Shown here: positions 1-57,425 of the stretch, one piece after another
Numbering within the stretch: position 1 is the first letter of the stretch
Layout of the letters: every line of letters begins with the position of its first letter
Assembly (NCBI RefSeq): GCF_022347785.1
Contig: NZ_JAKRGA010000002.1
Location: 496,001 to 560,000 of the forward strand
Length of the DNA stretch: 64,000 nt
Reading direction: 5' to 3'
DNA from: Psychrobium sp. MM17-31
GTDB lineage: Bacteria > Pseudomonadota > Gammaproteobacteria > Enterobacterales > Psychrobiaceae
The notes under the pieces: generated by a model
The model's input: the letters and a program-made list of their open reading frames with translations, nothing else
Databases searched by the model: none
Told to the model about the DNA's origin: nothing
Position numbers and translations under genes: made by a program

Positions 1-285
1 ATCTTAGATTTGAGCGCTGCTCACAACATGCTAAAAACGCTGGGATATCACAACACACTGACTCTAGCTAAAACCCGCAGCATGTACTTTGTTGGCGACT
101 ATCACATCACCTTCGATCACCTCGATGGCTTAGGCTATTTCGCTGAATTCGCCATTATGACCGACGATGAAGCAAGTCTTGAATATCACCGTAGCCAGTT
201 GACTGTCCTAGCAGAAAAATTTGGATTAAGTCGCCATGAAGAAATAGCCACTTCCTACCGACAACTCGTTGAAAGACTAAGATAA
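1..285 (+). CDS. CYTH-domain protein, class IV adenylate cyclase (CyaB)-like, 5'-truncated by window edge
   Basis: The frame is open from base 1, so this is the C-terminal part (about 94 residues) of a longer protein; the TTG at 10 is not taken as a start. The segment with Arg-Ser-Met-Tyr, then GDYHITFDHLDGLGYFAEF, fits the second half of the CYTH fold, where alternating charged residues on beta strands and the LGxFxE motif line the triphosphate tunnel. Known members are class IV adenylate cyclases (Aeromonas CyaB) and triphosphatases; full proteins are about 170-190 aa, so roughly half is missing. Cyclase versus triphosphatase activity cannot be decided here. Its stop overlaps the convergent kinase gene end by 9 bp. 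Confidence 0.7.
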   Translation: MLDLSAAHNMLKTLGYHNTLTLAKTRSMYFVGDYHITFDHLDGLGYFAEFAIMTDDEASLEYHRSQLTVLAEKFGLSRHEEIATSYRQLVERLR

Positions 286-2001
286 CGCCTTTGTAAAAGC
301 CATCCGCAACTTAGCTGGCTTAATCGGTTTATGCAGCAGTATTGCGTCACAGGCGTTAGCGCGAGTGATACAATCAGGTGCCGTATCTCCAGTAAGAATG
401 ATTGCAGGCACAGTAACACGATAGTTCTCTCTAACAAGGTCGATTAACTTATCACCGTATAGCCCTTGCTCGAGGCGTAAATCAGAAATAATTAATTCCG
501 GCGCAGTTAGTTTTTTCATCATTTGTTCAACTTGCTCACTCGATTGAGCACTGTATACCGTTGCGCCCCAACTCTCGAGTAAACTTGTTAGCGCATCGAG
601 AATTAACGTATCGTCATCAACAACCCAAGCAGTAATCGTCATTGAATCAACAGCTGTTGGCATAGTGTTTTGCTGAGCAATTTGCGAGCCAAAACAGCGC
701 TTTACCGATAACTTAAACAAGCAATAGCGATTAACCTCCGATTGATGAGAAATAGAATGCCCTAATAATGCACAGGTTTTCTTTACAATGGAAAGTCCAA
801 GCCCTAATCCTTTATCGCGTTGTCGCCCATAATTATCCACTTGGTAAAATTCACTATAAATATCGTCGGCGAATTCGGCGGCAATACCACGTCCATTATC
901 CATCACAAAGATACTAACTGACTTGCCGCATCGCTTAGCTCCCACCAGAATTTTAGAGCCTTTGCTGTGCTTAATGGCATTAGTGATTAAATTACTCAAA
1001 CAGCGCTTCAATAGCACCGCATTACTCTCAATCACTAACGATGTTGGTACAATACGTAACCTGATATCGTGCTGGGCGGCAACTTCATCAAAGCTGGCAA
1101 TCGTATTCTCAAAGACTCTTTGCAGTGAAACTGGTGATTTTTGATGGTCAATATCACCTGCTTCCAAGCGCGAAATATCTAACAAGGTATCTAATAACGC
1201 TTGTAAAGACTCCGCAGATTTACTGACTTTAGACAAAATCTGTCGATGGGTTTGCTGCGTCAGTTCAATGTTCAATTGGTCGAGAAACAGCATCATCGCC
1301 TGCAATGGCTGGCGTAAATCGTGGCTAGCCGCCGCCAAAAACTTGGACTTAGCACGATTATTGGCTTCGGCTATTCTGCGTTGTTTGTCATAATCTTTTG
1401 CTAACTTATGATTGCTAATTTCTAATCGAATAGACTTAATAAACTGCTGATTAATGTTAAACGCAAACAAAAATAACGCAGCAGTGTAAACCACTAAAAA
1501 GCCAGCAATACCAAGAAAATAAAAAGCGTCTTCTCGCACCATCACAAACGAAGTTACGGTGATTATCATTAGCGGGGCTATTGCGGAATAATACATAGGG
1601 AGATAGGCGGTAATAGAGCCAAGTGCCGAACTAGACATACCTATGGCCAAAATAACGACACCAATGAGGAAGAAAATATGCTCTTTGCTATCTAGGGTAA
1701 TATCAGTAATTAGCAAACTCGGCATTCCCCAGACAACACCAGTGAAAAACACTAAGCCAGCAAAATACTTTAACGCGCTATCGGCATGCTTAATCTCAGT
1801 AATTTTCTTCGTCGAGCGAGCAAAAATAGCGTTTGCTAAGGCGCAAATGAAAACAGCAGTCAACCAAGAGATAACGGTTTGAGAGTCGTCAATCACATCG
1901 AAAAACAAATAGGCAGCGGTCAAGCCCGCAGCAATTGAGCCAAACGACCCCATATACATTTGCGAGCGAATCAATTCCAACTGACGTAATTTGACATTCA
2001 T
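277..2001 (-). CDS. Membrane-bound hybrid sensor histidine kinase with C-terminal receiver
   Basis: 574 aa. Residues about 15-185 hold several hydrophobic membrane segments with no large periplasmic loop. A HisKA domain follows, with phospho-acceptor His227 in FLAAASHDLRQPLQAM, then an HATPase with the N box (NLITNAIKH) and G boxes (DNGRGIA, GLGLGLSIVKK). A receiver domain occupies about 455-574, with acidic pocket VVDDD, phospho-acceptor Asp507 in IISDLRL and Lys in LLHKPIKP. The SHDLRQPLQ type is common in gammaproteobacterial kinases that signal to a separate regulator. No cognate regulator lies beside it: neighbours are a convergent CYTH gene and argP. Signal and output are unknown. Confidence 0.85.
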   Translation of the reverse strand: MNVKLRQLELIRSQMYMGSFGSIAAGLTAAYLFFDVIDDSQTVISWLTAVFICALANAIFARSTKKITEIKHADSALKYFAGLVFFTGVVWGMPSLLITDITLDSKEHIFFLIGVVILAIGMSSSALGSITAYLPMYYSAIAPLMIITVTSFVMVREDAFYFLGIAGFLVVYTAALFLFAFNINQQFIKSIRLEISNHKLAKDYDKQRRIAEANNRAKSKFLAAASHDLRQPLQAMMLFLDQLNIELTQQTHRQILSKVSKSAESLQALLDTLLDISRLEAGDIDHQKSPVSLQRVFENTIASFDEVAAQHDIRLRIVPTSLVIESNAVLLKRCLSNLITNAIKHSKGSKILVGAKRCGKSVSIFVMDNGRGIAAEFADDIYSEFYQVDNYGRQRDKGLGLGLSIVKKTCALLGHSISHQSEVNRYCLFKLSVKRCFGSQIAQQNTMPTAVDSMTITAWVVDDDTLILDALTSLLESWGATVYSAQSSEQVEQMMKKLTAPELIISDLRLEQGLYGDKLIDLVRENYRVTVPAIILTGDTAPDCITRANACDAILLHKPIKPAKLRMAFTKALS

Positions 2002-2087: not shown

Positions 2088-2984
2088 TTACTCGCCACTT
2101 AATATCTGCCGCCCATAACGCACGATTTCTTTAGAGATCTGCTTATGAATACCTTGAACCAACACCCAACTATGCCAATACAAGGTTAAAGTAATTGATT
2201 TATCGGGACAGAGGTTTATCAACTCACCATTGGCAATTTCTTCTTCAATTTGCAAGGTTGGCACCAAGCAATAAGCCGCTCCTTGCTTGGCCAGTTCAAC
2301 AAAAGCTTGTGAAGAGCGCACACTGTGACAGTAATAATCACGCGCCTGAATATTAAAATGCTGCTCAATGAATTTCACATGCATATCATCATTAGGATCG
2401 TAACTGATCCCCGGCGCAAAACGCAGACTGTCTTTGGTAATGCCATTGGGGAAATAACGTTTAGCGAACTCCGGCGAGCACACCAGAATAAAAGTTACAT
2501 CACCTAGTTCAAATGATTGATAGCCCGGCAATGCCTTTTCAAAACAACTTACCGCGCCAGTTGCTTGCCCCGAGCGCAATGCTTCAATGGTTTGGTATTC
2601 GTTTTTAACAATAAGATCGAGCTCCACTAAATGACGTTTTAGCACAGGTGTAATAGCACCTAGAAACCACGTGGCGATAGAGTCTGCGTTAACCGCCAGA
2701 GAGACTTTAATGGGTTTGGACGGTGAATCTGGCGCTAACTCGGGAATCAACTCATTTTCCAACTCTCGCACCATCTTAAAATGAACAACTAAACGCTCTC
2801 CAGCAGATGTTGCCGAAATAGGATTCGAGCGAATAATTACTGGCTGACCGATATTCTCTTCCAATAACTTAATGCGTTGCGACACCGCAGATTGAGTAAT
2901 AAACAGCTTAGCCGCGGCCTTTTCAAAGCTTTGTAAGTCAATCACCGCGGTTAGCGCTTCAAGTAATTTGTAATCAAATTTCAC
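2088..2984 (-). CDS. argP: LysR-type regulator ArgP (IciA)
   Basis: 298 aa, close to the family's usual size. The N-terminal winged helix (MKFDYKLLEALTAVID, then SFEKAAAKLFITQSAVSQRI) matches ArgP rather than generic LysR proteins, and the C-terminal two-thirds is the ligand-binding domain. In E. coli, ArgP activates argO with arginine as co-effector and lysine as antagonist. The start is GTG with only a weak upstream purine stretch, but residue 1 aligns with the ArgP N-terminus. The divergent neighbour across a 185-bp gap is an ArgO exporter, the classical ArgP target, which supports the name by context. Operon: single gene. Confidence 0.88.
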   Translation of the reverse strand: MKFDYKLLEALTAVIDLQSFEKAAAKLFITQSAVSQRIKLLEENIGQPVIIRSNPISATSAGERLVVHFKMVRELENELIPELAPDSPSKPIKVSLAVNADSIATWFLGAITPVLKRHLVELDLIVKNEYQTIEALRSGQATGAVSCFEKALPGYQSFELGDVTFILVCSPEFAKRYFPNGITKDSLRFAPGISYDPNDDMHVKFIEQHFNIQARDYYCHSVRSSQAFVELAKQGAAYCLVPTLQIEEEIANGELINLCPDKSITLTLYWHSWVLVQGIHKQISKEIVRYGRQILSGE

Positions 2985-12906: not shown

Positions 12907-14421
12907 ATGAAAACCTCACCTTTTTTGCTCGGCTTGAGCATGGTGCTGTTAGTTAGCTTTAACAGCGCCGCCAAAGACTACAGTCGTAACATTGAAATCG
13001 ACGCTAGCAATACCACCAAGCACAGCACCACCATTAACGGTAAGAAAGTCAAATACACCGCCACCACAGGCACCCAACCAGTTTGGAATAGCGAAGGCGA
13101 GCCAACAGCTAGTTTGTTTTACACCTACTACCAACGCACCGATATTAAAAACAAGGCCAAGCGCCCATTACTGATTTCATTTAACGGTGGTCCCGGCTCA
13201 GCATCAGTTTGGATGCACGTGGCTTACACTGGTCCGAAAACTCTAAACGTTGACGATGAAGGCTATCCGCTACAACCTTATGGCGTAAAAACTAATCCCC
13301 ACTCAGTGCTAGATATCGCCGACATCGTATTCGTAAACCCAGTAAATACCGGCTATTCACGTGTGCTACCAAACAAAGACGGTAAAATGCCGAGCAAGGA
13401 CAAACAAAAGAAAATGTTCTTTGGCGTTAATGCGGATGTTAAATACCTCGCCGATTGGATTAACACCTTCGTCACTCGCAATAATCGCTGGCGCTCACCT
13501 AAATACCTTATCGGTGAAAGCTACGGTACAACCCGTGTTTCTGGTTTAGCGCTAGAACTTCAATCGCGTCAATGGATGTATTTAAACGGCGTGATTTTAG
13601 TATCACCAACCGATATCGGCATCGAGCGCAAAGGCCCAGTGAAAGCGGCTAACCGTCTGCCATACTTCACAGCCACAGCATGGCATCACAAAGTACTGCC
13701 ACCAGCACTGCAAAACCGCGATTTACTCGATGTCCTAAAAGAAGTTGAAGCCTTTACTATCGACAGCTACTTACCAGCTATTGCCAAAGGCGGCTTTATT
13801 AACGCCGATGACAAACAAGCTCTTGCCGACAAAGTCGCTTATTACTCAGGGTTATCAAAACGTGCGGTGTTAGATAACAACCTCGACATTAACACCAGCT
13901 TCTTCTGGAAAGAGCTGCTGCGTGATAAAGAATTCACCGTTGGCCGTCTAGATTCGCGTTACCTTGGTATCGACAAGAAAAACGCTGGCTCACGTCCCGA
14001 TTACAACGCAGAATTGACTTCATGGTTACACAGCTTCACCCCAGCGATTAACTACTATCTACGCGAAGAGTTAAACTACAAAACCGATCTCAAATACAAC
14101 ATGTTCGGCAATGTGCACCCATGGGATCGCACAGGTAACCGCACTGGCGAAAACCTCCGCTTAGCCATGGCACAAAATCCATACCTAAATGTAATGGTAC
14201 AAGCGGGTTACTATGACGGCGCAACAAACTATTTCGACGCCAAATACACCCTATGGCAACTCGACCCAAGTGGAAAAATGAAAGATCGCATGTCATTCAA
14301 AGGCTACCGCAGCGGCCACATGATGTACTTGCGCAAAGAAGATTTAAAACTGTCTAACGACGACCTACGTCAATTTATTAAAAACACAATGGTTGATGGA
14401 AAAACGGCGGCTAAGTACTAA
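12907..14421 (+). CDS. Secreted serine carboxypeptidase-like protein (peptidase family S10)
   Basis: 504 aa with a signal peptide (MKTSPFLLGLSMVLLVSF, cleavage after SAA). The S10 fold is shown by the oxyanion/substrate segment FNGGPGSASVW, the VNPVNTGYSR strand, and the nucleophile Ser205 in IGESYGTTR. Catalytic Asp437 (AGYYDGATN) and His471 (YRSGHMMY) complete the triad. Family members remove C-terminal residues from peptides at acid pH. The protein should act in the periplasm or outside the cell in peptide scavenging. It is monocistronic; a large hairpin follows at 14449-14484. Confidence 0.88.
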   Translation: MKTSPFLLGLSMVLLVSFNSAAKDYSRNIEIDASNTTKHSTTINGKKVKYTATTGTQPVWNSEGEPTASLFYTYYQRTDIKNKAKRPLLISFNGGPGSASVWMHVAYTGPKTLNVDDEGYPLQPYGVKTNPHSVLDIADIVFVNPVNTGYSRVLPNKDGKMPSKDKQKKMFFGVNADVKYLADWINTFVTRNNRWRSPKYLIGESYGTTRVSGLALELQSRQWMYLNGVILVSPTDIGIERKGPVKAANRLPYFTATAWHHKVLPPALQNRDLLDVLKEVEAFTIDSYLPAIAKGGFINADDKQALADKVAYYSGLSKRAVLDNNLDINTSFFWKELLRDKEFTVGRLDSRYLGIDKKNAGSRPDYNAELTSWLHSFTPAINYYLREELNYKTDLKYNMFGNVHPWDRTGNRTGENLRLAMAQNPYLNVMVQAGYYDGATNYFDAKYTLWQLDPSGKMKDRMSFKGYRSGHMMYLRKEDLKLSNDDLRQFIKNTMVDGKTAAKY

Positions 14422-41893: not shown

Positions 41894-42940
41894 TTATCTA
41901 AATGACTTTATGGATCCGATATCTTGTCGTTGGATAAAATTGTCCAAACCTTCAGCCAAGCGCTCAGTTTCTGCGAAAACCTGTTGCCAGTAGGCAATTC
42001 GCGTATCTGCGTCCAGCTCGGTAAAGTCGGTACGATCGGGGATTTTTCCATAAGGCAGGTTAGCGATAAACTCAGGCGACGGACAAATCAGCACTACGTT
42101 ATCGTAACTCTGTTTGCTCACACCACGTTTGAGGGATTTATCAAACCAGCCCGCTTTTGGAGTGGCATTAAAGTGCGGATAAAGCACCAGCCCTTTATTC
42201 TTGAGCTTGAGATCGAAGTGATAGTCAATAATGCCGCCATCGCGATACATCCCTTTTGGGCAACCGGGAATATCGCGGATCCCTTGCATCACTAACGGAA
42301 TAGAGCCAGAGGCTAATAAAGAAGGTTTTAAATTATCGGCATCAAGCGTTTGCGTATGAGTGGTAAGCTGCACCGGATCGTCAAACAACAAATTGCCACC
42401 CGCTGCACTAAACACATAACGCTCATATTGCTTGGCCAACAAGGCGCGATCTTTACGATTGAGTAGATAGCTCTTTGCTAATCCCAACGCTTGCAGCGGT
42501 TTCTTTTCACTTGCCAATACACCATTGGTTTTGGCAACAAAAAAGTGCGCTTTGTAGCGTGGATTGTTAATGATTTCATCCACCCCGCTATCACCGAGCA
42601 TAATATCAAGCAGCTCTCGCGCCTTGTCGGTAATTTCAGCGGCCGTCGCCTTATCCGAATAACGGGTATGAGCATAATTGTGAGCTAAACGCTCGATAGC
42701 AGCCACGGGATCATTTTGCGTAAAACACGCCGCGCGAAAGGCCCCTGCACTAGAGCCTATAATATCGAGTTGCGTTGAGCGGCCTTTAAAAAACTCACCG
42801 AACAAGTATTTGTCCCAGCCATAAAGAGAAAACCACTTCGGACCACCGCTCGCGCCTATAAACACATCGAATAAATCTTGGCTAAAGCCGTGTTGTTCAA
42901 TTTCCTTTTTCGCCTTGTCACCTGCGTAAATCTCAAACAA
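41894..42940 (-). CDS. Patatin-like phospholipase/acyl hydrolase
   Basis: 348 aa, no signal peptide. The oxyanion motif GASGGPKW (29-36), nucleophile elbow GSSAG with Ser64 and the catalytic Asp in MYRDGGIIDYH identify a patatin-like Ser-Asp hydrolase. Start TTG at 42940 with GGAG eight bases upstream. Acts on lipid esters in the cytoplasm; some patatin-like proteins degrade stored PHB, which would fit the neighbouring 3-hydroxybutyrate dehydrogenase, but this is only suggestive. Divergent from bdhA with 181 bp between. Confidence 0.8.
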   Translation of the reverse strand: MFEIYAGDKAKKEIEQHGFSQDLFDVFIGASGGPKWFSLYGWDKYLFGEFFKGRSTQLDIIGSSAGAFRAACFTQNDPVAAIERLAHNYAHTRYSDKATAAEITDKARELLDIMLGDSGVDEIINNPRYKAHFFVAKTNGVLASEKKPLQALGLAKSYLLNRKDRALLAKQYERYVFSAAGGNLLFDDPVQLTTHTQTLDADNLKPSLLASGSIPLVMQGIRDIPGCPKGMYRDGGIIDYHFDLKLKNKGLVLYPHFNATPKAGWFDKSLKRGVSKQSYDNVVLICPSPEFIANLPYGKIPDRTDFTELDADTRIAYWQQVFAETERLAEGLDNFIQRQDIGSIKSFR

Positions 42941-43121: not shown

Positions 43122-43904
43122 ATGTTGGCAAATAAAGTGGCTTTAATTACCGGCTCAACCAGCGGCATTGGATTAGCCGCCGCACGCGTTTTAGCAGAGC
43201 AAGGAATCAACTTGATTTTACACGGATTGATGAGTGAGGAAGACGGCGCAGCGCTGGTCAAAGAGTTTGAAGCCGAGTACAAAATCAATGCTTATTTTAG
43301 CAATGCCGATTTGCGCGATCCTGATGCCATTAGCGACTTTATGGCCACAGGCGCAGCGGCGCTTGGCAGTATTGATATTTTGGTGAATAACGCAGGTATC
43401 CAGCACACCGAAGGTGCAGCTACTTTTCCTACCAACAAATGGAATGACATTATCGCTATCAACCTCAGCTCAGCATTTCATGCCATTCAGCAGTGTTTAC
43501 CAGCAATGACAGAAAAGAAATGGGGCCGCATTATTAACATAGCCTCAGTTCACGGCTTAGTGGGCTCTAAAAACAAATCAGCCTATTGTGCCGCTAAACA
43601 CGGCATCGTTGGTTTAACCAAGGTAGTAGCACTAGAATGCGCCGAAGACGGCATTACCGTAAACTCCATCTGTCCCGGCTGGGTCGATACCCCACTTATC
43701 GGCCAACAGATCACCGATATCGCTGAAAAAGAAGGCGTCAGTTTCGACGAAGCCCAATACAAACTCATTACCGCTAAGCAGCCACTACCAGCGATGGCAG
43801 ATCCACGTCAGATTGGTGAGTTTATCCTGTTCTTATGCAGCGACGCCGCCAAAGGCATTACTGGCTCAGCACTACCAATGGACGGTGCTTGGACGGCGCA
43901 GTAA
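43122..43904 (+). CDS. bdhA: D-3-hydroxybutyrate dehydrogenase
   Basis: 260-aa short-chain dehydrogenase. The NAD site is GSTSGIG, the structural NNAG is in ILVNNAGIQH, and the catalytic Ser-Tyr-Lys lie in IASVHGLVGSKNKSAYCAAKHG. GIQH, SVHGLV and PGWVDTPL are specific to 3-hydroxybutyrate dehydrogenases, and the C-terminus ALPMDGAWTAQ is family-typical. It oxidises D-3-hydroxybutyrate to acetoacetate with NAD. Next step genes (succinyl-CoA:3-ketoacid CoA-transferase) lie downstream at 44084 and at 56056-57425. AGGAG precedes the start; an intrinsic terminator follows. Confidence 0.92.
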   Translation: MLANKVALITGSTSGIGLAAARVLAEQGINLILHGLMSEEDGAALVKEFEAEYKINAYFSNADLRDPDAISDFMATGAAALGSIDILVNNAGIQHTEGAATFPTNKWNDIIAINLSSAFHAIQQCLPAMTEKKWGRIINIASVHGLVGSKNKSAYCAAKHGIVGLTKVVALECAEDGITVNSICPGWVDTPLIGQQITDIAEKEGVSFDEAQYKLITAKQPLPAMADPRQIGEFILFLCSDAAKGITGSALPMDGAWTAQ

Positions 43905-43927
43905 TTCCGAGAGTTTTTCCCGTCTTC

Positions 43928-43953
43928 AAGCCTTGCTTTATGCAGGGCTTTTT
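43928..43953 (+). terminator. Rho-independent terminator of bdhA
   Basis: AAGCCTTGC-TTTAT-GCAGGGCTT followed by a T-run (one G-T wobble pair). Confidence 0.85.
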
Positions 43954-44004
43954 CTTGCCCAACTTATAGCACCTAAACATGGCATTTAAAAAACCTATAA
44001 ATAT

Positions 44005-44037
44005 ATCAAAACTATAAATTTGATTAATAAATAAACT
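44005..44037 (+). promoter_or_regulatory. Duplicated 33-bp regulatory element upstream of orphan scoA
   Basis: This 33-bp stretch differs from 55971-56003 (upstream of scoAB) at only three positions. It contains TTTGATTAATAAATAAA, an imperfect version of the perfect palindrome at the other locus. It is 46 bp before the scoA start and is probably a binding site for the LysR regulator at 55034. Confidence 0.6.
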
Positions 44038-44083
44038 ACCACCAAACTTAAGCCATTATCAGTAACGAGTTGTGAGGTTTGAT

Positions 44084-44788
44084 ATGACGGGTTTTAACAA
44101 AGTAGTTAACGATTTTTCTACGGCGCTAGATGGCCTAAAAGACGGCATGACAATAGTGGCAGGAGGATTTGGTTTATGTGGCATCCCACAGGGTCTTATT
44201 GACGAAATTAAACGCCGTGGTACGCGAGAGCTCACCGTGGTTTCCAATGATTGCGGCACCACAGAGCACGGTTTAGGTATTTTACTGATCGACTATCAAA
44301 TCAAAAAAATGATCGCATCTTATGTGGGAAACAGCGCTAATTTCGAGGCACAAATGATCAGCGGTAAACTCGATGTAGAACTCACGCCACAGGGGACATT
44401 AGCCGAAAAAATGCGTGCTGGTGGCGCGGGCATTCCTGCTTTTTATACCGCTACTGGTTACGGTACGGCGGTAGCTGAGGGTAAGGAATCTCGCTTTATT
44501 AATGGTCGTCACTGTATCCTCGAAGAGTCAATTACAGGTGATTTTGCACTAGTCAAAGCATGGAAAGCCGATACATTCGGCAATCTAATATTCCGTAAAA
44601 CAGCACGTAACTTTAATCCCCTTGCCGCGATGGCGGGAAAGATTACTGTTGTTGAAGTTGAAGAGTTAGTGGATGCAGGCGAATTAGATCCCGATGAGAT
44701 TCACACTCCAGGGATCTACGTCAATCGCGTTATTGTTGGTTCGCGTCATAAAGAAATTGAATTTGTGACCACAAAACCTAGGCAGTGA
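44084..44788 (+). CDS. scoA: 3-oxoacid CoA-transferase subunit A, orphan second copy
   Basis: 234 aa. Core motifs [41 protein letters not shown] and [16 protein letters not shown] place it in the alpha subunit of succinyl-CoA:3-oxoacid CoA-transferase. By hand count it is about 83% identical to the copy at 56056 over the first 215 residues, diverging at the C-terminus. No subunit B gene follows; the next gene is convergent and overlaps it by 11 bp. The protein might pair with the ScoB at 56766 or be a leftover of duplication. The ATG at 44084 is chosen for its GAGG site; a GTG at 44072 is possible. Confidence 0.88.
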   Translation: MTGFNKVVNDFSTALDGLKDGMTIVAGGFGLCGIPQGLIDEIKRRGTRELTVVSNDCGTTEHGLGILLIDYQIKKMIASYVGNSANFEAQMISGKLDVELTPQGTLAEKMRAGGAGIPAFYTATGYGTAVAEGKESRFINGRHCILEESITGDFALVKAWKADTFGNLIFRKTARNFNPLAAMAGKITVVEVEELVDAGELDPDEIHTPGIYVNRVIVGSRHKEIEFVTTKPRQ

Positions 44789-45716
44789 AGTCCTTGATTA
44801 GCTTAAAGGTTTGTTGATATTCATCTTGAACTAAATCATTAATCAACATATACGCGTGGATCATATCGTTAAACTGATGGTGTTTAACCTTTACGCCGTG
44901 TTGAGCCAACTTCTCAGCATACGCATTGCCTTCGTCTCGTAATGGATCACAGCCTGCTGTTATCACTAAAGTCTCAGGCATTCGATCGTTAAAAGTTCCA
45001 AATAGCGCTGATGCTGATTGCGCAGCTTGATCGATATCTTGCTCCGAATGGAAATATTGCTCGAAATACCACTCAACTTTAGCCGTTTCAAGCAAGAAAC
45101 CACTGCCGTTTTCTTGGTAGGAGTCAAAGCTCATGGTGTAATCGACGCTTGGGTAAATCAGGATTTGCTTATCAATTTTTATATCGCCACGCTGATTATT
45201 GTTCATCACTAAGTTAGTACAAATTGCGCCGCCTGCGCTATCACCAGCGATATAAAGCACGTCGTTGTGATTGTGCTCCACTAGCAGCTGGCGATAGTTT
45301 TCGAGTAAATACTGACAATCGTTTAAGCCCATCGGATACGGAAATTCTGGCGCTAAACGATATTCGATACACAGCACGATTGCTTGGCACTGCTGTGCCA
45401 GCTCACGGCTGATAGGATCGTATAACTCCACCGAACCACACATGTGTCCGCCGCCGTGAAAATGCAATAACACAGGTAGCTTTTTATCGGGTGCAGGGTT
45501 GTAGATTCGGACATTAATCGCCGCCTCATAGTCTGGCATCAGCACATCAGTCACGCTCGCTATCTCAGGCCCTTTGGCCATGAGTCCCGCTAAATTATTT
45601 AAACCTTCGCGAGTTAACTCGGGCGTATAACCAATCCCCTGCGCTCTGGCATTGGCCATAACTTCATTTACTTGGTCGAGAAAAGGTTCGAGTTTGGAAG
45701 ATACAACGCCGCGCAT
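44778..45716 (-). CDS. Alpha/beta hydrolase, HSL/GDXG lipase family
   Basis: 312 aa, cytoplasmic. The oxyanion motif HFHGGGHMCG and the nucleophile motif GDSAGGAICTNL are the two hallmarks of hormone-sensitive-lipase-type esterases; ITAGCDPLRDEG supplies the acid and HAYM the His. Substrates are short-chain esters. The start overlaps the MFS carrier stop by 1 bp (TAATG), so uptake and hydrolysis are coupled; the carrier may import an ester or short hydroxyacid oligomer. Confidence 0.86.
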   Translation of the reverse strand: MRGVVSSKLEPFLDQVNEVMANARAQGIGYTPELTREGLNNLAGLMAKGPEIASVTDVLMPDYEAAINVRIYNPAPDKKLPVLLHFHGGGHMCGSVELYDPISRELAQQCQAIVLCIEYRLAPEFPYPMGLNDCQYLLENYRQLLVEHNHNDVLYIAGDSAGGAICTNLVMNNNQRGDIKIDKQILIYPSVDYTMSFDSYQENGSGFLLETAKVEWYFEQYFHSEQDIDQAAQSASALFGTFNDRMPETLVITAGCDPLRDEGNAYAEKLAQHGVKVKHHQFNDMIHAYMLINDLVQDEYQQTFKLIKDFTA

Positions 45717-47017: not shown

Positions 47018-50000
47018 GTGTTAGTTTGGATCTCGTTAGATCGGTGGTTTGTAACCGCTGTTGCCATCGGCTATCTAGCACTGTTATTCGTCATCGCCTA
47101 TCAAGGGCAAAAACAATCACCAAGCCAATGGCGCTCTCGGCCATGGATTTACAGTTTGGCGCTCGGCGTTAGTTGTACCTCATGGGCGTTTTACGGCACC
47201 GTTGGCCAAGCAGCTACTACAGGCGCATGGCTCGCCCCCATCTACATTGGCAGTATTTTGTGTTTAGTCGCCGCATGGCCGATGCTGGCCAAAATACTCA
47301 GTATCGTAAAACAGCAAAACCTCACTTCCATCGCCGACTTTATTGCCTTTAGATACGATCGCTCCCCGATGCTCGCCGCCGCTATTGCACTCGTGGTATT
47401 GGCGGGAACAGTGCCTTATATTGCGCTACAACTCCGCGCAATTAGTACCAGCTTTGATTTGCTAACAGGCACCTATCAATCGGGAATTAGCACCGCCTTT
47501 GTCGTGACCCTAGTGCTTATAGTTTTTAGTATTTTATTCGGCACGCGACAAATCGCCGCTAGCAAACAAAACCAAGGTTTGATGCTAGCGATAGCGGTTA
47601 GCTCAGTGGTCAAACTCTTTGCCCTATTCGCCGTTGGCATCTTCGCGACTTTTTATGTGTTTGATGGTGTCGAGCAACTACTAACCGCACAAAAATCACT
47701 GCCACAAACGCCAGTAAACAATGCTTACTTAGCGGTGTCACAGGCAATATTAGGCGCTATCACTATCTTTATTCTGCCGCAGCAATTTCACATGATGATG
47801 ATCGAGAATCATCACCGCGACGAGCTTAAAGCCGCCCGCTGGCAATACCCGCTTTATCTATTATTGATAAATTTATTCGTCCTGCCGATTGCTATCGCTG
47901 GCCAATCAACTTTTCCCGGTGGCAGCGTCGCCGCCGATACCTTCGTGCTGACATTGCCATTGTTTTACCAACAAGCTTGGCTAGGTTTAGTGGTGTTTAT
48001 TGGTGGCTTGGCCGCGGCCACCAGCATGGTGATTGTGTCAGCCATCGTGCTTAGTAACATGCTGTCAACGGAAGTCATTACCCCGCTGATGTTAAAAATG
48101 AAGCGTTTTGACGCCAGCCAAACACCGCAATTATCAGGTTCGTTATTAAGTGCCCGTCGTCTGACTATCGGTATCATTTTACTGCTCGCTTTTAGTTTTG
48201 AACGTGTGATTAACCAACACGATCATCTCGCCACCATTGGCCTTTTATCGTTTGTATTACTGTCACAATTCGCGCCTGCAACAATCGGCGCACTCTACTG
48301 GCGACAAGGCACATCGCAAGGAGCGCTAGTTGGTTTGGTTGTCGGAACAGTCGTGTGGTTATACACCTTGTTTTTACCGCTGTTTTTCAAAGATTCTAGC
48401 TGGTTATCACAAGGATTATTTGATTTATCATGGCTTAAACCAACCGCGTTATTTGGCCTCGATTGGCTCGATGAAATCAGTCACGGCGTAGTATTTAGTC
48501 TGCTGCTCAATACGCTTGCTTTTGTGATTGTTTCCCTAAAAAGTCGCCGCAGTGTTGGCGAAAAGCTCCAAGCTGAGCTCTATCTTGCCAAAAGTCAAAG
48601 TAAGTTCGAACAACGCCTAACCTTTGATGATCTCGCCAACTTACTGCATCGTTTTACCAACGACGATATCGCAAATAAACTCAACGACTTTAAACACGGC
48701 AATCGTCCTAATGCCGCTCTCAATGAAGCCATTGAGTACACAAGATTACAGTTATCAGGCGTATTAGGCTCAGCCTCGACACGCATGGTAATGAAAGCCG
48801 CTTCAACCTCGCAACAGATGCCACTTGAAGATGTGGTGAGCATTGTGGATGAAGCGAGCCAGATGTTCGAATTTAACCGTGAACTATTGCAATCTGGGGT
48901 TGAAAACATCGAGCAAGGGATCAGCGTTGTCGATGCCGATATGCGCATTGTAGCGTGGAATCAGCGCTATGTTGATTTACTGTGCTACCCTGCGGGATTT
49001 GTTACCGCCGGCAAATCGGTGCGAGAGTTGCTGCAATACAATGTTGAAAAAGGCATTATCACAGGCGCACAAGCCGACGAACTAGTCGAGCGCCGAATCG
49101 AACACATGCGCCTTGGCCACAGCCATCAGTTTCAGCGCACCATGCCCAATAACGTGGTGTTAGAAATTCGCGGCCAAGCAATGCCCGGCGGCGGTTTCGT
49201 TAGCACTTACTCTGATATTACTGCCCACATTGAAGCGGAAAAAGCGCTGCGTCTTGCCAATGAAAATCTCGAAAAACGAGTAAAACAACGCACCCAAGAG
49301 CTAGAAGATGCCAAGGCACAAGCGGAAGCTGCCAATCGCAGTAAAACCCGCTTTTTAGCGGCAACCAGTCACGATTTAATGCAGCCTTTTAACGCGTTGT
49401 CACTCTTTACTTCGATGCTGAAAAACCGCGTTGAAGGCACAGATTTAAGCGAGCTTGCAGATCATATCGACGATTCCCTTAATGTCGTTGAAGGCTTATT
49501 GTCAGATTTAGTGGAAATTTCACGGCTCGATAGTGGCTCGCAAAAAATAGAAATCAGCGAGTTTGCGGTAGATGATGTGCTGGCAACATTGGAAAACGAA
49601 TTTACCCTGCTTGCCGCACAGGACAACATCACCTTTAGCTATCAACGATCCAGCGCCAGCGTTAAAACCGACAAGCGCATGCTGCGCCGGATCATTCAAA
49701 ACCTGCTTAACAACGCCGTGCATTATTGCGATGACAAAACAGGCGCTAAGGCCAATATTCGCAACAAAATAGTGCTTGGTGTTAGACATTGCCCTGATAC
49801 GATTTCGATTGAAGTATGGGACAACGGCCCGGGCATTTCGCCAGCCCAACAGCAGCAAATATTTAAAGAATTTGAGCGCCTTGAGACCCACCGTGAAGTG
49901 CCCGGCCTCGGCCTTGGACTAGCGATTTGTGAACGCATGGCCAAATTGTTAGAGACGAAAATCACTATCGAATCTGAGCTCGGTAAAGGCACTGGTTTTA

Positions 50001-50446
50001 AAATTCGTATTCCTCGGGTCGCTACTACGCAAACGGATGTTCCAAGCGCGGCTAAAGTGCCAACTGAGCAAAGCGGTAATGAGTATCACGGCATCCGAGT
50101 ATTAGTGATTGATAACGATAACCTGATGCTAACTGCCATCGCCTCTCAGCTATGTGACTGGGGCTTTACGGTAATGACCGCCAAGGATAAAGCCAGCGCT
50201 GAGCATGAGGTTATTAGCGGCACGCCAAGCCTGATTATCGCCGATTATCATCTGGACAATCATTGCAATGGCGTCGACGTCGCGCGTCAGCTGCAAAGCG
50301 AAAACAGTTGGCAGTTACCTTGTATTATTTGCTCCGCCGATCCTTCGGAGCAAGTTCGCCAGCACACGAGTGAGGCGAGTTATTTATTCTTGCGCAAACC
50401 TGTGAAAGCACTGGCGCTGAAGCGGATGATAAAGCAGTTGCTATGA
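47018..50446 (+). CDS. CrbS-like hybrid sensor kinase with sodium/solute symporter domain
   Basis: 1142 aa. Residues about 5-505 are a 13-helix SSS/SLC5 symporter domain (YQGQKQSPSQW, YQQAWLGLVVF, QFAPATIGALYWRQG). A short STAC-like linker follows, then PAS at about 635-750, a coiled coil, HisKA with His785 (FLAATSHDLMQPFNALSLF), HATPase (NLLNNAVHYC; GLGLGLAICERM) and a receiver with Asp1076 (LIIADYHLDN). This is the architecture of CrbS, which with CrbR controls acetate use (acs). Start GTG with AAGGAA eight bases upstream. A LuxR-type regulator of the CrbR kind lies 0.3 kb downstream on the other strand. Confidence 0.87.
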   Translation: MLVWISLDRWFVTAVAIGYLALLFVIAYQGQKQSPSQWRSRPWIYSLALGVSCTSWAFYGTVGQAATTGAWLAPIYIGSILCLVAAWPMLAKILSIVKQQNLTSIADFIAFRYDRSPMLAAAIALVVLAGTVPYIALQLRAISTSFDLLTGTYQSGISTAFVVTLVLIVFSILFGTRQIAASKQNQGLMLAIAVSSVVKLFALFAVGIFATFYVFDGVEQLLTAQKSLPQTPVNNAYLAVSQAILGAITIFILPQQFHMMMIENHHRDELKAARWQYPLYLLLINLFVLPIAIAGQSTFPGGSVAADTFVLTLPLFYQQAWLGLVVFIGGLAAATSMVIVSAIVLSNMLSTEVITPLMLKMKRFDASQTPQLSGSLLSARRLTIGIILLLAFSFERVINQHDHLATIGLLSFVLLSQFAPATIGALYWRQGTSQGALVGLVVGTVVWLYTLFLPLFFKDSSWLSQGLFDLSWLKPTALFGLDWLDEISHGVVFSLLLNTLAFVIVSLKSRRSVGEKLQAELYLAKSQSKFEQRLTFDDLANLLHRFTNDDIANKLNDFKHGNRPNAALNEAIEYTRLQLSGVLGSASTRMVMKAASTSQQMPLEDVVSIVDEASQMFEFNRELLQSGVENIEQGISVVDADMRIVAWNQRYVDLLCYPAGFVTAGKSVRELLQYNVEKGIITGAQADELVERRIEHMRLGHSHQFQRTMPNNVVLEIRGQAMPGGGFVSTYSDITAHIEAEKALRLANENLEKRVKQRTQELEDAKAQAEAANRSKTRFLAATSHDLMQPFNALSLFTSMLKNRVEGTDLSELADHIDDSLNVVEGLLSDLVEISRLDSGSQKIEISEFAVDDVLATLENEFTLLAAQDNITFSYQRSSASVKTDKRMLRRIIQNLLNNAVHYCDDKTGAKANIRNKIVLGVRHCPDTISIEVWDNGPGISPAQQQQIFKEFERLETHREVPGLGLGLAICERMAKLLETKITIESELGKGTGFKIRIPRVATTQTDVPSAAKVPTEQSGNEYHGIRVLVIDNDNLMLTAIASQLCDWGFTVMTAKDKASAEHEVISGTPSLIIADYHLDNHCNGVDVARQLQSENSWQLPCIICSADPSEQVRQHTSEASYLFLRKPVKALALKRMIKQLL

Positions 50447-50748
50447 TGAATGATTCTAATTTTATAGTGGTATTTCTTTCGCTAATTATTGTTCATGGAG
50501 CTTGTTTAATCGGACTTTACGTGACAGTAAAACGCGTTCGATATCGTATGGAAGAAAAGAAAAACAATAAGAAAACTCGTAATGCCTTTGAAGATAAGCT
50601 CAGACGGCAACGAGTTCTCATAATCGTCTTGCCAATCATCGGTCCTTTGCTAGGACTAGCTACCTGCTTTGGTTTAAATTCAGGCCACCAAGATGCGGGA
50701 AAGAAAGTAAACTTCCCCGCAGACAATCACTCATCAGATAGTGATTAA
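50443..50748 (+). CDS. Small two-helix membrane protein coupled to the CrbS-like kinase
   Basis: 101 aa. The ATG overlaps the kinase stop (ATGA), so translation is coupled. Helix 1 about residues 7-29 (FIVVFLSLIIVHGACLIGLYV), a strongly basic loop (VKRVRYRMEEKKNNKK), then helix 2 about 56-78 and a polar tail. No family recognised. Its stop shares bases with the stop of the convergent response regulator. Being tied to the kinase, it could be an accessory subunit, but this is inference. Confidence 0.6.
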   Translation: MMNDSNFIVVFLSLIIVHGACLIGLYVTVKRVRYRMEEKKNNKKTRNAFEDKLRRQRVLIIVLPIIGPLLGLATCFGLNSGHQDAGKKVNFPADNHSSDSD

Positions 50749-51410
50749 TCGCTGCGATTTTCAGGGGCGGCTAGCATCAGTTGCTGATAAGCAAGACCCG
50801 CTAAGGTGCGGTTGTTGACTTCTAGCTTGAGTAAAATGGCCGACACATGTTTTTTGACTGTGGTTTCTTTGATATCCAAATCATAGGCTATTTGCTTGTT
50901 TAAGCGGCCATCGGCGATTTGGGTCAATACGACATATTGCTGCGGCGTGAGCTGAGCCAGTTGCTTAGCAAGATGTTGATTCGCTTTGGTTTGTGTATCA
51001 TCAGTCAAGGCTTGGTCGACGTGCTCAGGCAACCACACTTCACCATCCAACACCACTTCAATAGCACTAGCAATTGTAGAAAGGTCGGCTGATTTAGGAA
51101 TAAATGCCGCCGCGCCAAAGCTAATGGCCTTTTGCATGGTTTCGACATTATCGTCTGACGACACCATAATCACCACCAAATCCGGATAGTGATTTTGCAA
51201 TTGCATCAATCCAGTAAAACCATTGTTACCGGGCATGTGAAGATCTAAAAACACAATCTCCAAGCTAGGATTGGCCTCAACGGCTTCAAGCACTTCTTCG
51301 AAACACTCCGCCTCTAAAATCTGCGCATCATCAATACACTCAACAATCGCCTGCTTCAACGCCGTGCGAAACAGTGGATGATCATCGGCAATAATAACTT
51401 GTGGCTGCAT
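50745..51410 (-). CDS. LuxR/NarL-type response regulator, CrbR (ErdR)-like
   Basis: 221 aa. The receiver has IIADDHPLF and phospho-acceptor Asp56 (IVFLDLHMPG) with Lys in FIPKSA; the C-terminal LuxR helix-turn-helix is LTPQQYVVLTQIADGRLNKQIAYDL...ETTVKKHVSAILLKL. These features are shared with CrbR/ErdR. It is convergent to the CrbS-like kinase gene and its small partner. CrbR activates acetyl-CoA synthetase in Vibrio and Pseudomonas, so acetate or short acyl metabolism is the likely output; no acs is in the window. Confidence 0.86.
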   Translation of the reverse strand: MQPQVIIADDHPLFRTALKQAIVECIDDAQILEAECFEEVLEAVEANPSLEIVFLDLHMPGNNGFTGLMQLQNHYPDLVVIMVSSDDNVETMQKAISFGAAAFIPKSADLSTIASAIEVVLDGEVWLPEHVDQALTDDTQTKANQHLAKQLAQLTPQQYVVLTQIADGRLNKQIAYDLDIKETTVKKHVSAILLKLEVNNRTLAGLAYQQLMLAAPENRSD

Positions 51411-53891: not shown

Positions 53892-54851
53892 TTAGTTCAG
53901 TTGCCAAAAATCGACAATTTGTTGCGCAGTACTCAGCTGCGCTTTAGGTAAAAATGGCGCGGTTGAGCCGCCATTTTTTACAGCAGGATTAACGCTCCAG
54001 CCGTGATCCATTCCTTTGATCGTCACCAGCTCGATCGTTGGTTTATCGCCGCTTTTCCATTGGCTAAAACTGGCGCCTAACTTATCTTCGGTTGCAACTT
54101 GCTTGCTGCCAGAAAGCGCGGCCCATTGCTCGGCTAGTTTTTGAGAATTGACCGCATTTACTACCTTGTCGCTATCGCCAGTCGCAATAAACAGTGGCGG
54201 CCAAGTCGTAGTCTTTGGCGATGTTTTCTGTGCCAAGGCAACCAATTCTGCCGCGCTTTGAGACGGCCCCGCCCGCATACAAGAAATGGCTTTAATCAAG
54301 TTGTCTGCGCAGGGGTACGGCAAGCCAGCAATCACAGCACCGCCGTCAAACATTTGCGGATAAGTCACCAACAATCCACTGGCCATGGCGCCACCAGCAG
54401 ACAAACCAGCGATGTAAACTTGATCCACCTTTAATGATCCTTTTACGGTGGTGATCATATTTTTCAGCGAAAGTGTCTCACCTTGATCGCGTGCGGTGTC
54501 CGGCGTTGAAAACCAGTTGAAGCATTGCTTGATGTTGTTGCTTTTACTTTGCTGCGGCAAAAGTAGTGCAAAGTTATGGCTCTTCGCTAAACCGCGAAAA
54601 CCACTGTCTACAGCAAGCTTTTCAGCGTTTTGTACACAACCGTGCAATAACACAACCAGTGCTTTTGGCGTTTTAGTCGGCCTGAACACGCTAGCGGTTA
54701 GTTCACCAGGATTTTCACCAAATTGAGAGAGCGGTAAACTAGCAGGCACTTGTTCACTAGCGGCGTTTGCAAGCGGCGAAAAACTCACACTAGCAACAAA
54801 ACCAAGGGCAGCGATGGCAGAAATTAACAGAGATTTATTTTGGGGCATCAT
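53892..54851 (-). CDS. Secreted PHB-depolymerase-family esterase
   Basis: 319 aa with signal peptide (cleavage after LANA). The LpqC/PHB-depolymerase type fold is shown by VVLLHGCVQNAEKLA (oxyanion, 66-80), LLPQQSKSNNIKQCFNWF with disulphide-type Cys, nucleophile Ser151 in GLSAGGAM, Asp in FIATGDSDKVV and His in GMDHGWSVNP. This is type 1 short-chain esterase, possibly a poly(3-hydroxybutyrate) or feruloyl esterase. No substrate-binding domain is present. First gene of a two-gene operon with a TonB receptor; secreted into the periplasm or medium. Confidence 0.85.
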   Translation of the reverse strand: MMPQNKSLLISAIAALGFVASVSFSPLANAASEQVPASLPLSQFGENPGELTASVFRPTKTPKALVVLLHGCVQNAEKLAVDSGFRGLAKSHNFALLLPQQSKSNNIKQCFNWFSTPDTARDQGETLSLKNMITTVKGSLKVDQVYIAGLSAGGAMASGLLVTYPQMFDGGAVIAGLPYPCADNLIKAISCMRAGPSQSAAELVALAQKTSPKTTTWPPLFIATGDSDKVVNAVNSQKLAEQWAALSGSKQVATEDKLGASFSQWKSGDKPTIELVTIKGMDHGWSVNPAVKNGGSTAPFLPKAQLSTAQQIVDFWQLN

Positions 54852-55033: not shown

Positions 55034-55921
55034 TCATCCATACTTTTCAACCAATTGCCCTATAAAAGACTGCGCAGCTACAGATAGTGGCTTTCGTTGC
55101 TGAGTCACTATACCAACACGGCGCATTAGCGGCGGAGATTGCAGTGGTACACACTTGGCGCCTTGCGCTTCAAATAACGGCGTGCAGAGCGATGGAACCG
55201 CGCTAACGCCTAGTCCGCTTGCTACCATTTGACCGATTGTCGCCAGTTGATTTGCTTCAAACTCTACATCAAATGCCAGCCCTTGTTCATCGAGCAAGGC
55301 TTCAATTTGTGCACGAATGGTTGACGGTTGTTGTAGCGCTATCAAAGGGGATTCTAATAGCTGAGCCCAAGAAAAATGTTCAGTGCAATCCTGTGCAAGC
55401 GCTGGTGGAATGGCCGCAACAAATTTATCTTCAAACAGTGGAATGAAATCGAGTTGTGGCACATCGGGCACTTCAAATACCAATGCTAATTCGACTTGAT
55501 CGTCAATTACCATTTGCACCGCATCTTCTGCCACAACATCGTGCAGTTTGATTTTGACATCGGGAAATTCATTGCGAAAACGCTTGAGATAACTTGGCAC
55601 TAACGAGCTGGCAAAAGACGGCATGGCAGCAATAGATAAAATGCCATGCTCAAGAGTGAATGCTTGTGATAAATCGATAAAAGCATCATCCCAATCTTGC
55701 AGTAAGCGTTTAGCGGTGGGTAAAAAACGTTGCCCTTCTGGTGTTAACACCACCGCACGGGTGGTACGTGAAAATAGCGCCCCTCCCACTTCTGTTTCTA
55801 GATTTTTAATGGCAATACTTAATGCAGGCTGTGAAATATGCAGTAGCTCACAGGCGGCCATAAAACTCTCTTGCTGAGCGACCACCACAAATGCTTTGAG
55901 TTGTTTTAGCGTTACATTCAT
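55034..55921 (-). CDS. LysR family regulator, divergent from scoAB
   Basis: 295 aa. The N-terminal helix-turn-helix is LKAFVVVAQQESFMAACELLHISQPALS; the C-terminal domain is a two-lobe effector-binding fold. AAGGAG lies before the ATG. It is divergent from scoAB over 134 bp, with the perfect palindrome TTTGTTTA-A-TAAACAAA between them, the classical LysR arrangement. A near-copy of that element lies before the orphan scoA, so it probably regulates both. The inducer may be acetoacetate or 3-hydroxybutyrate (inference). Confidence 0.87.
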   Translation of the reverse strand: MNVTLKQLKAFVVVAQQESFMAACELLHISQPALSIAIKNLETEVGGALFSRTTRAVVLTPEGQRFLPTAKRLLQDWDDAFIDLSQAFTLEHGILSIAAMPSFASSLVPSYLKRFRNEFPDVKIKLHDVVAEDAVQMVIDDQVELALVFEVPDVPQLDFIPLFEDKFVAAIPPALAQDCTEHFSWAQLLESPLIALQQPSTIRAQIEALLDEQGLAFDVEFEANQLATIGQMVASGLGVSAVPSLCTPLFEAQGAKCVPLQSPPLMRRVGIVTQQRKPLSVAAQSFIGQLVEKYG

Positions 55922-55970: not shown

Positions 55971-56003
55971 ATCAAAACAATAAATTTGTTTAATAAACAA
56001 ACT
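55971..56003 (+). promoter_or_regulatory. LysR-type binding element upstream of scoAB (copy of 44005-44037)
   Basis: Contains the perfect palindrome TTTGTTTA-A-TAAACAAA (55985-56001) between the LysR gene and scoA. It is 30 of 33 bases identical to the element before the orphan scoA, and both sit a similar distance (46 and 52 bp) before the start codons. Confidence 0.7.
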
Positions 56004-56055: not shown

Positions 56056-56763
56056 ATGGCGGGATTTAATAAAGTCGTTTCCAGTTTTCAAGAAGCGATG
56101 AATGGCCTCGAAGACGGTATGACAGTGGTCGCAGGCGGTTTTGGTTTATGTGGCATTCCTCAAGGCTTAATCAATGAAATTAAAAGCAAAGGTACGCGCG
56201 AGTTAACCGTAGTTTCAAATAACTGCGGCACCACAGAGCATGGCTTGGGTGTGTTGTTAGTTGACCGTCAAATCAAGAAAATGGTGGCGTCATACGTCGG
56301 TGAAAACGCTAATTTTGAGTCGCAAATGATGAGTGGCGAGTTAGAAGTTGAACTGACTCCACAAGGAACACTGGCAGAAAAAATGCGTGCTGGCGGCGCT
56401 GGCATTCCGGCATTTTTCACCGCGACGGGTTATGGCACGGCAGTCGCCGATGGCAAAGAAGAGCGCGAATTTAATGGCCGCCAATACATTTTAGAAGAAT
56501 CGATTACGGGTGATTTCGCCATCGTAAAAGCGTGGAAAGCCGATACTTTTGGCAATTTAATGTTTCGAAAAACGGCTCGTAACTTTAATCCACTAGCGGC
56601 CATGGCTGGCAAAGTCACCGTGGTGGAAGTCGAAGAAATTGTAGAGCCGGGTGAGCTTGATCCCGATGAAATTCACACGCCGGGGATCTATGTTAATCGC
56701 ATTATTTTAGGCACTAGTGAAAAACTGATTGAGCAACGCACCGTCGCTCAACAAGGAGAATAG
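56056..56763 (+). CDS. scoA: 3-oxoacid CoA-transferase subunit A
   Basis: 235 aa with the CoA-transferase alpha-subunit motifs [41 protein letters not shown] and [14 protein letters not shown]. With ScoB it moves CoA from succinyl-CoA to acetoacetate, making acetoacetyl-CoA for thiolysis; thus it follows BdhA in 3-hydroxybutyrate use. AGGAG lies before the ATG. It is the likely ancestral, complete-operon copy (subunit B is 2 bp downstream); the orphan copy at 44084 lacks a B partner. Confidence 0.93.
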
Positions 56764-56765
56764 TC

Positions 56766-57425
56766 ATGGCATTATCAAGAGAACAACTAGCAATGCGCGT
56801 GGCGCAAGAGCTACGCGATGGTTACTACGTAAACCTTGGTATTGGTATTCCAACTTTAGTGGCGAACTATATTCCCGATGGCATGCAGGTCATGTTGCAA
56901 TCTGAAAACGGTTTATTGGGTATGGGAGAGTTTCCGCAAGAAGAAGATGTCGATGCCGACTTAATCAATGCCGGTAAACAAACAGTAACCGCAGTAACTG
57001 GCGCAAGTATTTTTGACTCAGCAGAATCTTTTGCGATGATCCGCGGCGGCCACGTTGATTTAACCGTGTTAGGCGCATTTGAAGTGGATACTCAAGGTAA
57101 TATCGCGTCTTATATGATCCCCGGTAAGCTCATTAAAGGCATGGGTGGCGCGATGGATCTTGTGGCTGGCGCCGATAATATCATAGTCACCATGACTCAC
57201 GCGTCTAAAGGCGGCGATTCTAAATTACTACCCGAGTGTAATCTGCCACTCACAGGCAAGGGCTGTATCAAGAAGGTACTTACCGATCTCGCTCTCATCG
57301 AAATTAAAGACGGTAAGTTTCACCTGCTTGAACGCGCCCCCGGCGTCAGTGTTGAAGAGATAAAATCACTAACCGCAGGCGAACTGGTGGCTGACGGTGA
57401 CATTCCGGAGATGCAGTTTAATTAA
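56766..57425 (+). CDS. scoB: 3-oxoacid CoA-transferase subunit B
   Basis: 219 aa. The catalytic Glu is in LQSENGLLGMGEFP, preceded by VNLGIGIPTLVANY and followed by SAESFAMIRGGHVDLTVLGAFEVD, the beta-subunit signatures. Glu forms the acyl-enzyme thioester intermediate with CoA. It starts 2 bp after scoA, with AAGGAG upstream, in a two-gene operon closed by a terminator at 57451-57486. It is the only B subunit in the window. Confidence 0.93.
   Translation: MALSREQLAMRVAQELRDGYYVNLGIGIPTLVANYIPDGMQVMLQSENGLLGMGEFPQEEDVDADLINAGKQTVTAVTGASIFDSAESFAMIRGGHVDLTVLGAFEVDTQGNIASYMIPGKLIKGMGGAMDLVAGADNIIVTMTHASKGGDSKLLPECNLPLTGKGCIKKVLTDLALIEIKDGKFHLLERAPGVSVEEIKSLTAGELVADGDIPEMQFN

Follow-up and report, generated by a model that had tools for sequence, protein, structure and literature searches.

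A lone scoA gene in Psychrobium sp. MM17-31 that carries the promoter element of scoAB and an altered acyl pocket

Which acid family I CoA-transferases prefer as acyl group (succinate, acetate or 3-oxoadipate) has been argued from few structures, and it has been pointed out that the organic-acid specificity of these enzymes must be understood for the acetone pathway (PMC12400318). The catalytic glutamate of the family is found in subunit B, and in CtfAB of T. melanesiensis, as described in the same source, the A-subunit residues in contact with acetate are N50 and Q98, while T78, F54, F24 and L25 line the pocket (PMC12400318). In human SCOT the position of T78 is occupied by E118, which forms a salt bridge with K368 and may in this way favour succinyl-CoA (PMC12400318); K368 follows the catalytic Glu344 by 24 residues (PMC3825524). 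A triple change of CtfA (L25M/F54L/T78L) is reported to have had no effect in an acetone-pathway assay, and CtfA combined with CtfB of another genus was active (20% at 70 C; PMC12400318).

The window, that is the whole stretch of 64,000 nucleotides of Psychrobium sp. MM17-31 that was analysed, contains an A-subunit gene of this family that stands alone. This scoA gene (44084-44788, plus strand), here called the orphan, has an ATG start and no internal stop and encodes 234 amino acids, which we propose to form an alternative A subunit. With the profile for 3-oxoacid CoA-transferase subunit A (TIGR02429) its product scores 258 bits and passes the cut-off of 128.5, whereas the AtoD profile for the acetate CoA-transferase subunit alpha (NF007394) gives 225.2 bits and fails its cut-off of 315. 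The family I A-subunit fold is indicated by the PF01144 profile (240 bits) and by an AlphaFold model of the orphan A subunit alone, which has a mean pLDDT of 85.3. The top PDB matches of this model in Foldseek are SCOT A subunits, namely the A chains of 3cdk and 3rrl, with TM-scores of 0.91-0.92.

A search of the genome recovered three scoA and two scoB genes, which correspond to one scoAB pair in the window, a second scoAB pair elsewhere and the orphan. The scoA of the first pair (56056-56763, plus strand; TIGR02429, 267.9 bits) is followed by a scoB (56766-57425, plus strand; TIGR02428, 319.2 bits, cut-off 243.55) which has the catalytic Glu47 and Lys71 and is the presumed partner of the orphan. 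The second pair closes a presumed leucine-type operon on a different contig, beside genes that we take to encode an acyl-CoA dehydrogenase, a carboxylase and an HMG-CoA-lyase-like protein. Lys71 is present in its ScoB too, which shares 80% identity with the ScoB at 56766. A scoB directly downstream of scoA is the usual gene order and lies outside the TIGR02429 definition of the protein. An earlier note on this DNA had described the orphan as lacking a scoB, and this was confirmed: no scoB match occurs within 2 kb of the gene, and both genomic scoB genes are elsewhere. The identity of 83% to the scoA at 56056 that the note had arrived at by hand count, however, is too high, as alignment of the two proteins gives 185 identical residues out of 234 (79.1%). 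At the level of bases the two genes are 72.1% identical, and 131 of their 234 third codon positions differ.

Upstream of the orphan is a 3-hydroxybutyrate dehydrogenase gene (43122-43904, plus strand; TIGR01963, 308.9 bits, cut-off 307.05). Between it and the orphan promoter there is a terminator-like hairpin (43928-43950, plus strand), the only one found in a consensus scan in which 0.1 were expected. The next gene after the orphan encodes an alpha/beta hydrolase (44778-45716, minus strand; PF07859). It is convergent and overlaps the orphan end by 11 bases, which leaves no room for a scoB remnant; such a remnant was rejected for this reason and in view of the position of both genomic scoB genes. 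Flanking insertion repeats of at least 12 bases were not found in 43880-44900. The third-position GC (orphan, 0.387; scoA, 0.441; lysR, 0.368) neither points to a foreign origin of the orphan nor disproves one.

The genes form part of a cluster. In the window it comprises a PHB depolymerase-type gene (short-chain PHA depolymerase; 53892-54851, minus strand; NF050058, 255.3 bits, cut-off 150), the 3-hydroxybutyrate dehydrogenase, a TonB-dependent receptor, an MFS transporter and the alpha/beta hydrolase, together with a PAS-histidine kinase, an ErdR-like response regulator (205 bits, below the cut-off of 390), a LysR-type regulator (55034-55921, minus strand; PF00126 and PF03466) and scoAB. Judged by its gene content, the cluster probably serves the use of polyhydroxybutyrate or 3-hydroxybutyrate. 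Much of the set recurs as a group in Shewanella, Thalassotalea and Colwellia (loci L048-L052, L056, L059). The histidine kinase (47018-50446, plus strand) and the response regulator (50745-51410, minus strand) both lie inside the cluster, and relatives of both are present in the matching Shewanella and Thalassotalea loci, and a relative of the regulator in that of Colwellia. Divergent from the dehydrogenase gene is one for a patatin-like protein (41894-42940, minus strand), which remains below the Pfam cut-off and is a possible lipid or polymer hydrolase.

We then asked how common a lone scoA is. In 295 genomes of the order, proteins with at least 57% identity were counted as ScoA-type, and genes with no scoB match within 2 kb as lone. 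Among the matches listed, which include at least 111 ScoA-type genes in 102 genomes, the orphan is the only lone scoA. The list that was used contains 139 of the 150 matches listed out of a larger total, without the 11 weakest, and a second list, likewise drawn from a larger total, was used without its 12 weakest. One further lone gene among the 139 (L106; G012:C4, ~93761-94363) encodes a distant CoA-transferase A subunit of 35% identity with no ScoB match nearby. In the named loci of the genome collection a scoB match is present in 39 out of 40, the exception (L086) being a fragment at a contig end. The two genes are adjacent in these loci, save for two of Phycisphaerales (L082 and L083) in which they are about 3.2 kb apart, with scoA ending at 10717 and scoB starting at 13899 and 13881, respectively. 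The genus, which is the whole family as sampled, has nine genomes, and the orphan was found in none of the other eight, although the completeness of three of these is no more than 80-88%. The dehydrogenase and hydrolase genes of the two nearest relatives meet without scoA; they are 40 bases apart in G001 and about 700 bases apart in G007, and no scoA or scoB match was detected in either junction locus at E values up to 1. The G007 junction has an ORF of 96 amino acids (L108:2619-2909, plus strand) where the window has the orphan.

The acyl pocket sets the orphan apart from its relatives. Positions N50, Q98 and T78 of CtfA correspond to positions 55, 103 and 83 of the orphan, with a constant alignment offset of five. 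Asn55 and Gln103 are invariant and are kept in the orphan. In place of the Asn56, Glu83 and Asn84 of the succinate-type pocket, however, it has Asp (codon 56, 44249-44251, plus strand), Asn and Ser (codons 83-84, 44330-44335, plus strand). In a first set of 72 sequences the orphan was the sole ScoA to depart from these three residues, which were invariant in the 71 others. After the set had been enlarged by 74 sequences, Asn56 and Asn84 were still present in all 145 other ScoA, while Glu83 was found in 138 and Gly in seven, so that the invariance of Glu83 suggested by the first count (71/71) was dropped. None of the 145 has the Asp56, Asn83 or Ser84 of the orphan. The counts omit L081 and L083, in which the match starts too far inside, the fragment L086, the distant L018, L047 and L056, which were taken as duplicates of L010 and L024 because their contigs are equally long, and repeats from the own genome. 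Private changes at otherwise invariant columns are absent from 138 of the 146 sequences. More than one is seen only in the orphan (two) and in L084 (five) and L082 (two), both of which are only remotely related (identity to the orphan 51% and 57%, respectively). The seven ScoA with Gly at the Glu83 position (L186-L192) belong to one genus code (g35), and their ScoB keep Lys71 (7/7).

Lys71 of ScoB lies 24 residues past Glu47 and thus at the position of K368 of human SCOT. It accompanies Glu83 of ScoA in all 72 readable ScoB; one more is cut off. Two distant groups of A subunits, which we take to be AtoD-type and PcaI-type, show other combinations. The AtoD-type has Asp56 and Thr83 together with Gly71 in the B subunit (11/11), and the PcaI-type has Asn56, Ser84 and Lys71 (8/8), with Asp (6), Asn (1) or His (1) as residue 83. 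A 20th distant protein, the L106 mentioned above, belongs to neither type. The pocket of the orphan therefore looks like a mosaic, with an AtoD-like Asp56 and with Asn83-Ser84 as in one PcaI-type protein, which would face a ScoB with Lys71. Position 83 alone need not change specificity, because the triple change of CtfA had no effect in one assay and the ScoA with Gly83 are paired with ScoB that keep Lys71.

With ScoA of the 3cdk/3rrl type the orphan shares sequence family, fold, length, Asn55 and Gln103, but it differs by the changes N56D, E83N and N84S and by having no adjacent scoB. AtoD and CtfA (1k6d, 5dbn, 9cq2, 8k9h) resemble it in having Asp56 and in the loss of Glu83, whereas their identity to it is only ~45% and they have Thr83, Asn84 and a Gly at the position of ScoB Lys71. 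PcaI (3-oxoadipate CoA-transferase subunit A) agrees with it in Ser84 (8/8), in Asn83 (1/8) and in Lys71 of the B subunit, but has Asn56 and a two-residue insertion just before position 83, so that the alignment there is less sure. In the acetate:succinate CoA-transferase of Trypanosoma brucei (6lp1, 9xmy) one of the two Asn of this pair has likewise given way to an Asp; in the T. brucei enzyme, however, the Asp is at position 55 and in the orphan at the neighbouring position 56. The structure of the D62N mutant of this enzyme, described as containing succinyl-CoA and acetylacetone, was a Foldseek match below the SCOT structures. That Asp56 of the orphan is the counterpart of the trypanosomal D62 was considered and rejected, since D62 falls on position 55, as seen from the chain index and from the reversal of the mutant and wild-type scores with a changed probe.

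Besides the coding sequence, the orphan has its promoter region in common with scoAB. A 33-bp element upstream of the orphan (44005-44037, plus strand) differs at three positions, as the earlier note had counted, from an element in the intergenic region between lysR and scoAB (55971-56003, plus strand). Its core is formed by a 17-base dyad (44019-44035 in the orphan) which presumably contains a LysR box of the form T-N11-A. Eight of the eight pairs of this dyad are present at scoAB, seven in the corresponding element of G007 and six in the orphan. The local similarity of the two upstream regions covers 51 of 62 columns and has a score of 65, compared to 35 for the best of 2000 dinucleotide-preserving shuffled pairs. 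When the three positions that differ between the two elements were left free and up to three mismatches allowed, the element pattern had two matches in the 4.17-Mb genome, both of them at the scoA sites, and the backward control had none. The second scoAB pair, in the leucine-type operon, is without the element. While the elements differ at 3/33 positions, the four-fold sites of the two genes differ at 61/95 (Fisher p 3e-8). This low divergence fits with selection acting on the element.

To see how far the element extends beyond this genome, the scoAB copy was compared with the 150 bases upstream of scoA in other loci. In 26 lysR-linked promoters (own copy excluded) the best match exceeds that in dinucleotide shuffles by a mean of 2.46 bases, whereas in 36 promoters without lysR (orphan excluded) the mean excess is 0.16 bases. 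With a match taken as significant if its score is reached by at most 2 of 200 shuffles, 8/26 other lysR-linked scoA promoters have one, compared to 0/36 of those without lysR. Of the eight, L032 and L035-L037 have almost the same sequence and share one genus code, and 18 of the 26 lysR-linked promoters have no significant match. Since it tracks lysR-linked scoA promoters, we consider the element to be an inherited promoter element. The view of the earlier note that it was kept along with the gene is thus borne out, both by its restriction to the two scoA sites and by its association with lysR-linked promoters. AT-rich chance, which the note had named as a possible source of the upstream similarity, is ruled out by the shuffles, the genome pattern search and the promoter comparison. 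In G007, which has the nearest orthologue, the element is conserved at 31/33 positions and the LysR is 80-81% identical; the element thus accompanies this LysR and part of its relatives and becomes fainter as the LysR diverges. Within the own genome the next best match to the LysR at 55034 is at most 32% identical. As the orphan shares the element of a lysR-linked promoter, this LysR may regulate both sites, as the earlier note had proposed. Sigma-70-like hexamers were found neither at the orphan promoter nor at the scoAB promoter.

The reading that we favour, although we give it somewhat less than an even chance, is that the orphan is a co-regulated alternative A subunit which borrows ScoB and shifts the acyl preference. 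Having its own copy of the lysR-scoA element, the orphan is probably expressed together with scoAB. It would not catalyse alone, because the catalytic glutamate of the family is in subunit B, and would depend on a ScoB encoded elsewhere. The most likely candidate is the ScoB at 56766, as this belongs to the same cluster and is preceded by the same element. That CtfA works with a foreign CtfB makes such a pairing plausible. In such an enzyme the carboxylate would still be bound by Asn55 and Gln103 and ScoB would contribute its usual chemistry, while the altered pocket would confer a different preference of one kind or another among CoA donors or acceptors. It would be used on acids from the breakdown of 3-hydroxyalkanoates, for which we infer acetate, propionate, or 3-oxovalerate from 3-hydroxyvalerate units as candidate substrates. 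Against this reading count the triple change of CtfA and the ScoA with Gly83, the imperfect dyad of the orphan, the majority of lysR-linked promoters without a match, the near-identity of four of the eight that have one, the missing sigma-70-like hexamers, the presence of the gene in one of nine genus genomes and an omega of the orphan branch that does not stand out from the background.

The favoured reading has a more far-reaching form, which we regard as possible but doubtful. One catalytic B subunit would serve two A subunits under the same operator, which would yield two CoA-transferases of different acyl preference from a single scoB. Specificity would be changed by swapping the non-catalytic half of the enzyme, and the pocket would have undergone a natural switch, with an acid for the amide at position 56 and an amide for the acid at position 83, while Lys71 on the ScoB side stayed as it was. 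The two A subunits, which presumably share one B, differ at positions that separate the SCOT, AtoDA and PcaIJ types. Such a pair allows a direct test of specificity, in which A is swapped and all else is constant. If the complex is active, it would be a clean case of a heteromeric enzyme that gained a second specificity through duplication of a single subunit. The CoA-transferase family, its fold and the pathway are already known; a lone scoA that bears the element and has an altered pocket was not found in the literature and genomes searched, and neither a scoA paralogue without scoB nor this LysR is described in the open-access literature searched.

In the tree, orphan, own scoA and the scoA of G007 group in a single clade (100/99), and their end branches measure 0.41, 0.064 and 0.075, respectively. 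The free tree places the orphan with G007 (99/58). A tree pairing orphan and own scoA is better by 2.07 log-likelihood units (p-AU 0.578), and the test does not reject one that pairs own scoA with G007 (p-AU 0.187). The copy is not recent, because the four-fold sites of orphan and own scoA differ at 61/95, compared to 55/104 between own scoA and its orthologue in G007, a sister species. The orphan may be an old copy that the relatives have lost, it may stem from a close relative that has not been sampled, or it may have evolved fast; it may also have arrived from another lineage. In the codon model, the fit drops by about 25 log-likelihood units when omega of the orphan branch is fixed at 1 instead of left free, which speaks for purifying selection. 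The length of this branch ran to the set bound, so that synonymous change is saturated, and omega was therefore not used as a value but only for the rejection of omega = 1. No difference in omega was seen between the orphan branch and the other branches, which gives no support to adaptive change in the orphan.

According to the main rival of the favoured reading, which we consider unlikely, the orphan is a crippled or decaying subunit that may still assemble with ScoB but is impaired in catalysis by its altered pocket, and it acts as a decoy that lowers activity or is a copy near loss. It would account for changes at residues that never vary in the 145 relatives, for the absence of the gene from all other genomes of the genus, and for the excess of amino-acid changes in the orphan over own scoA, which is seen with 6/6 outgroups (p < 0.05 in 4/6). 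The orphan has, however, been kept intact, as the earlier note had stated: its ORF is full after saturation of synonymous change, and omega = 1 is rejected. Moreover, the element is conserved, and Asp56 is the state found in the working AtoD-type families.

The earlier note had taken the retention of an intact A subunit to suggest a second function, a partner or a dosage role. A second role is likely, given that three near-invariant pocket residues are changed, and for the same reason simple dosage is disfavoured. We thus judge it quite improbable that the orphan is a plain spare copy, which would catalyse the reaction of scoA together with ScoB and do no more than raise the amount of A subunit. 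Its family, element and cluster are those of scoA and the two acid-contacting residues are kept, as would be expected of a spare copy, but identity is down to 79% after long divergence, and without a second scoB the amount of complete enzyme would presumably not rise as long as A and B are produced 1:1. Least probable is that the partner of the orphan is the ScoB of the other pair, similar as the two ScoB are, or an unknown protein, or none, as that pair lacks the element, lies on another contig and belongs to an operon of another pathway, while a lone A subunit would be without the catalytic glutamate of the family (PMC12400318).

Finally, we searched the window for further copies of the 17-base core of the element. 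With up to three mismatches there are ten matches, compared to 2.54 expected: five at the two scoA promoters, four overlapping ones at 2054-2074 and one inside the transporter gene (46334). Apart from the scoA promoters, none makes a convincing additional target in the window, and the core without mismatch is present only at the two known sites. The overlapping matches coincide with an AT-rich palindrome (2054-2074) which has 2-3 mismatches to the core and is located between another LysR gene (2088-2984, minus strand) and a histidine kinase gene (277-2001, minus strand).
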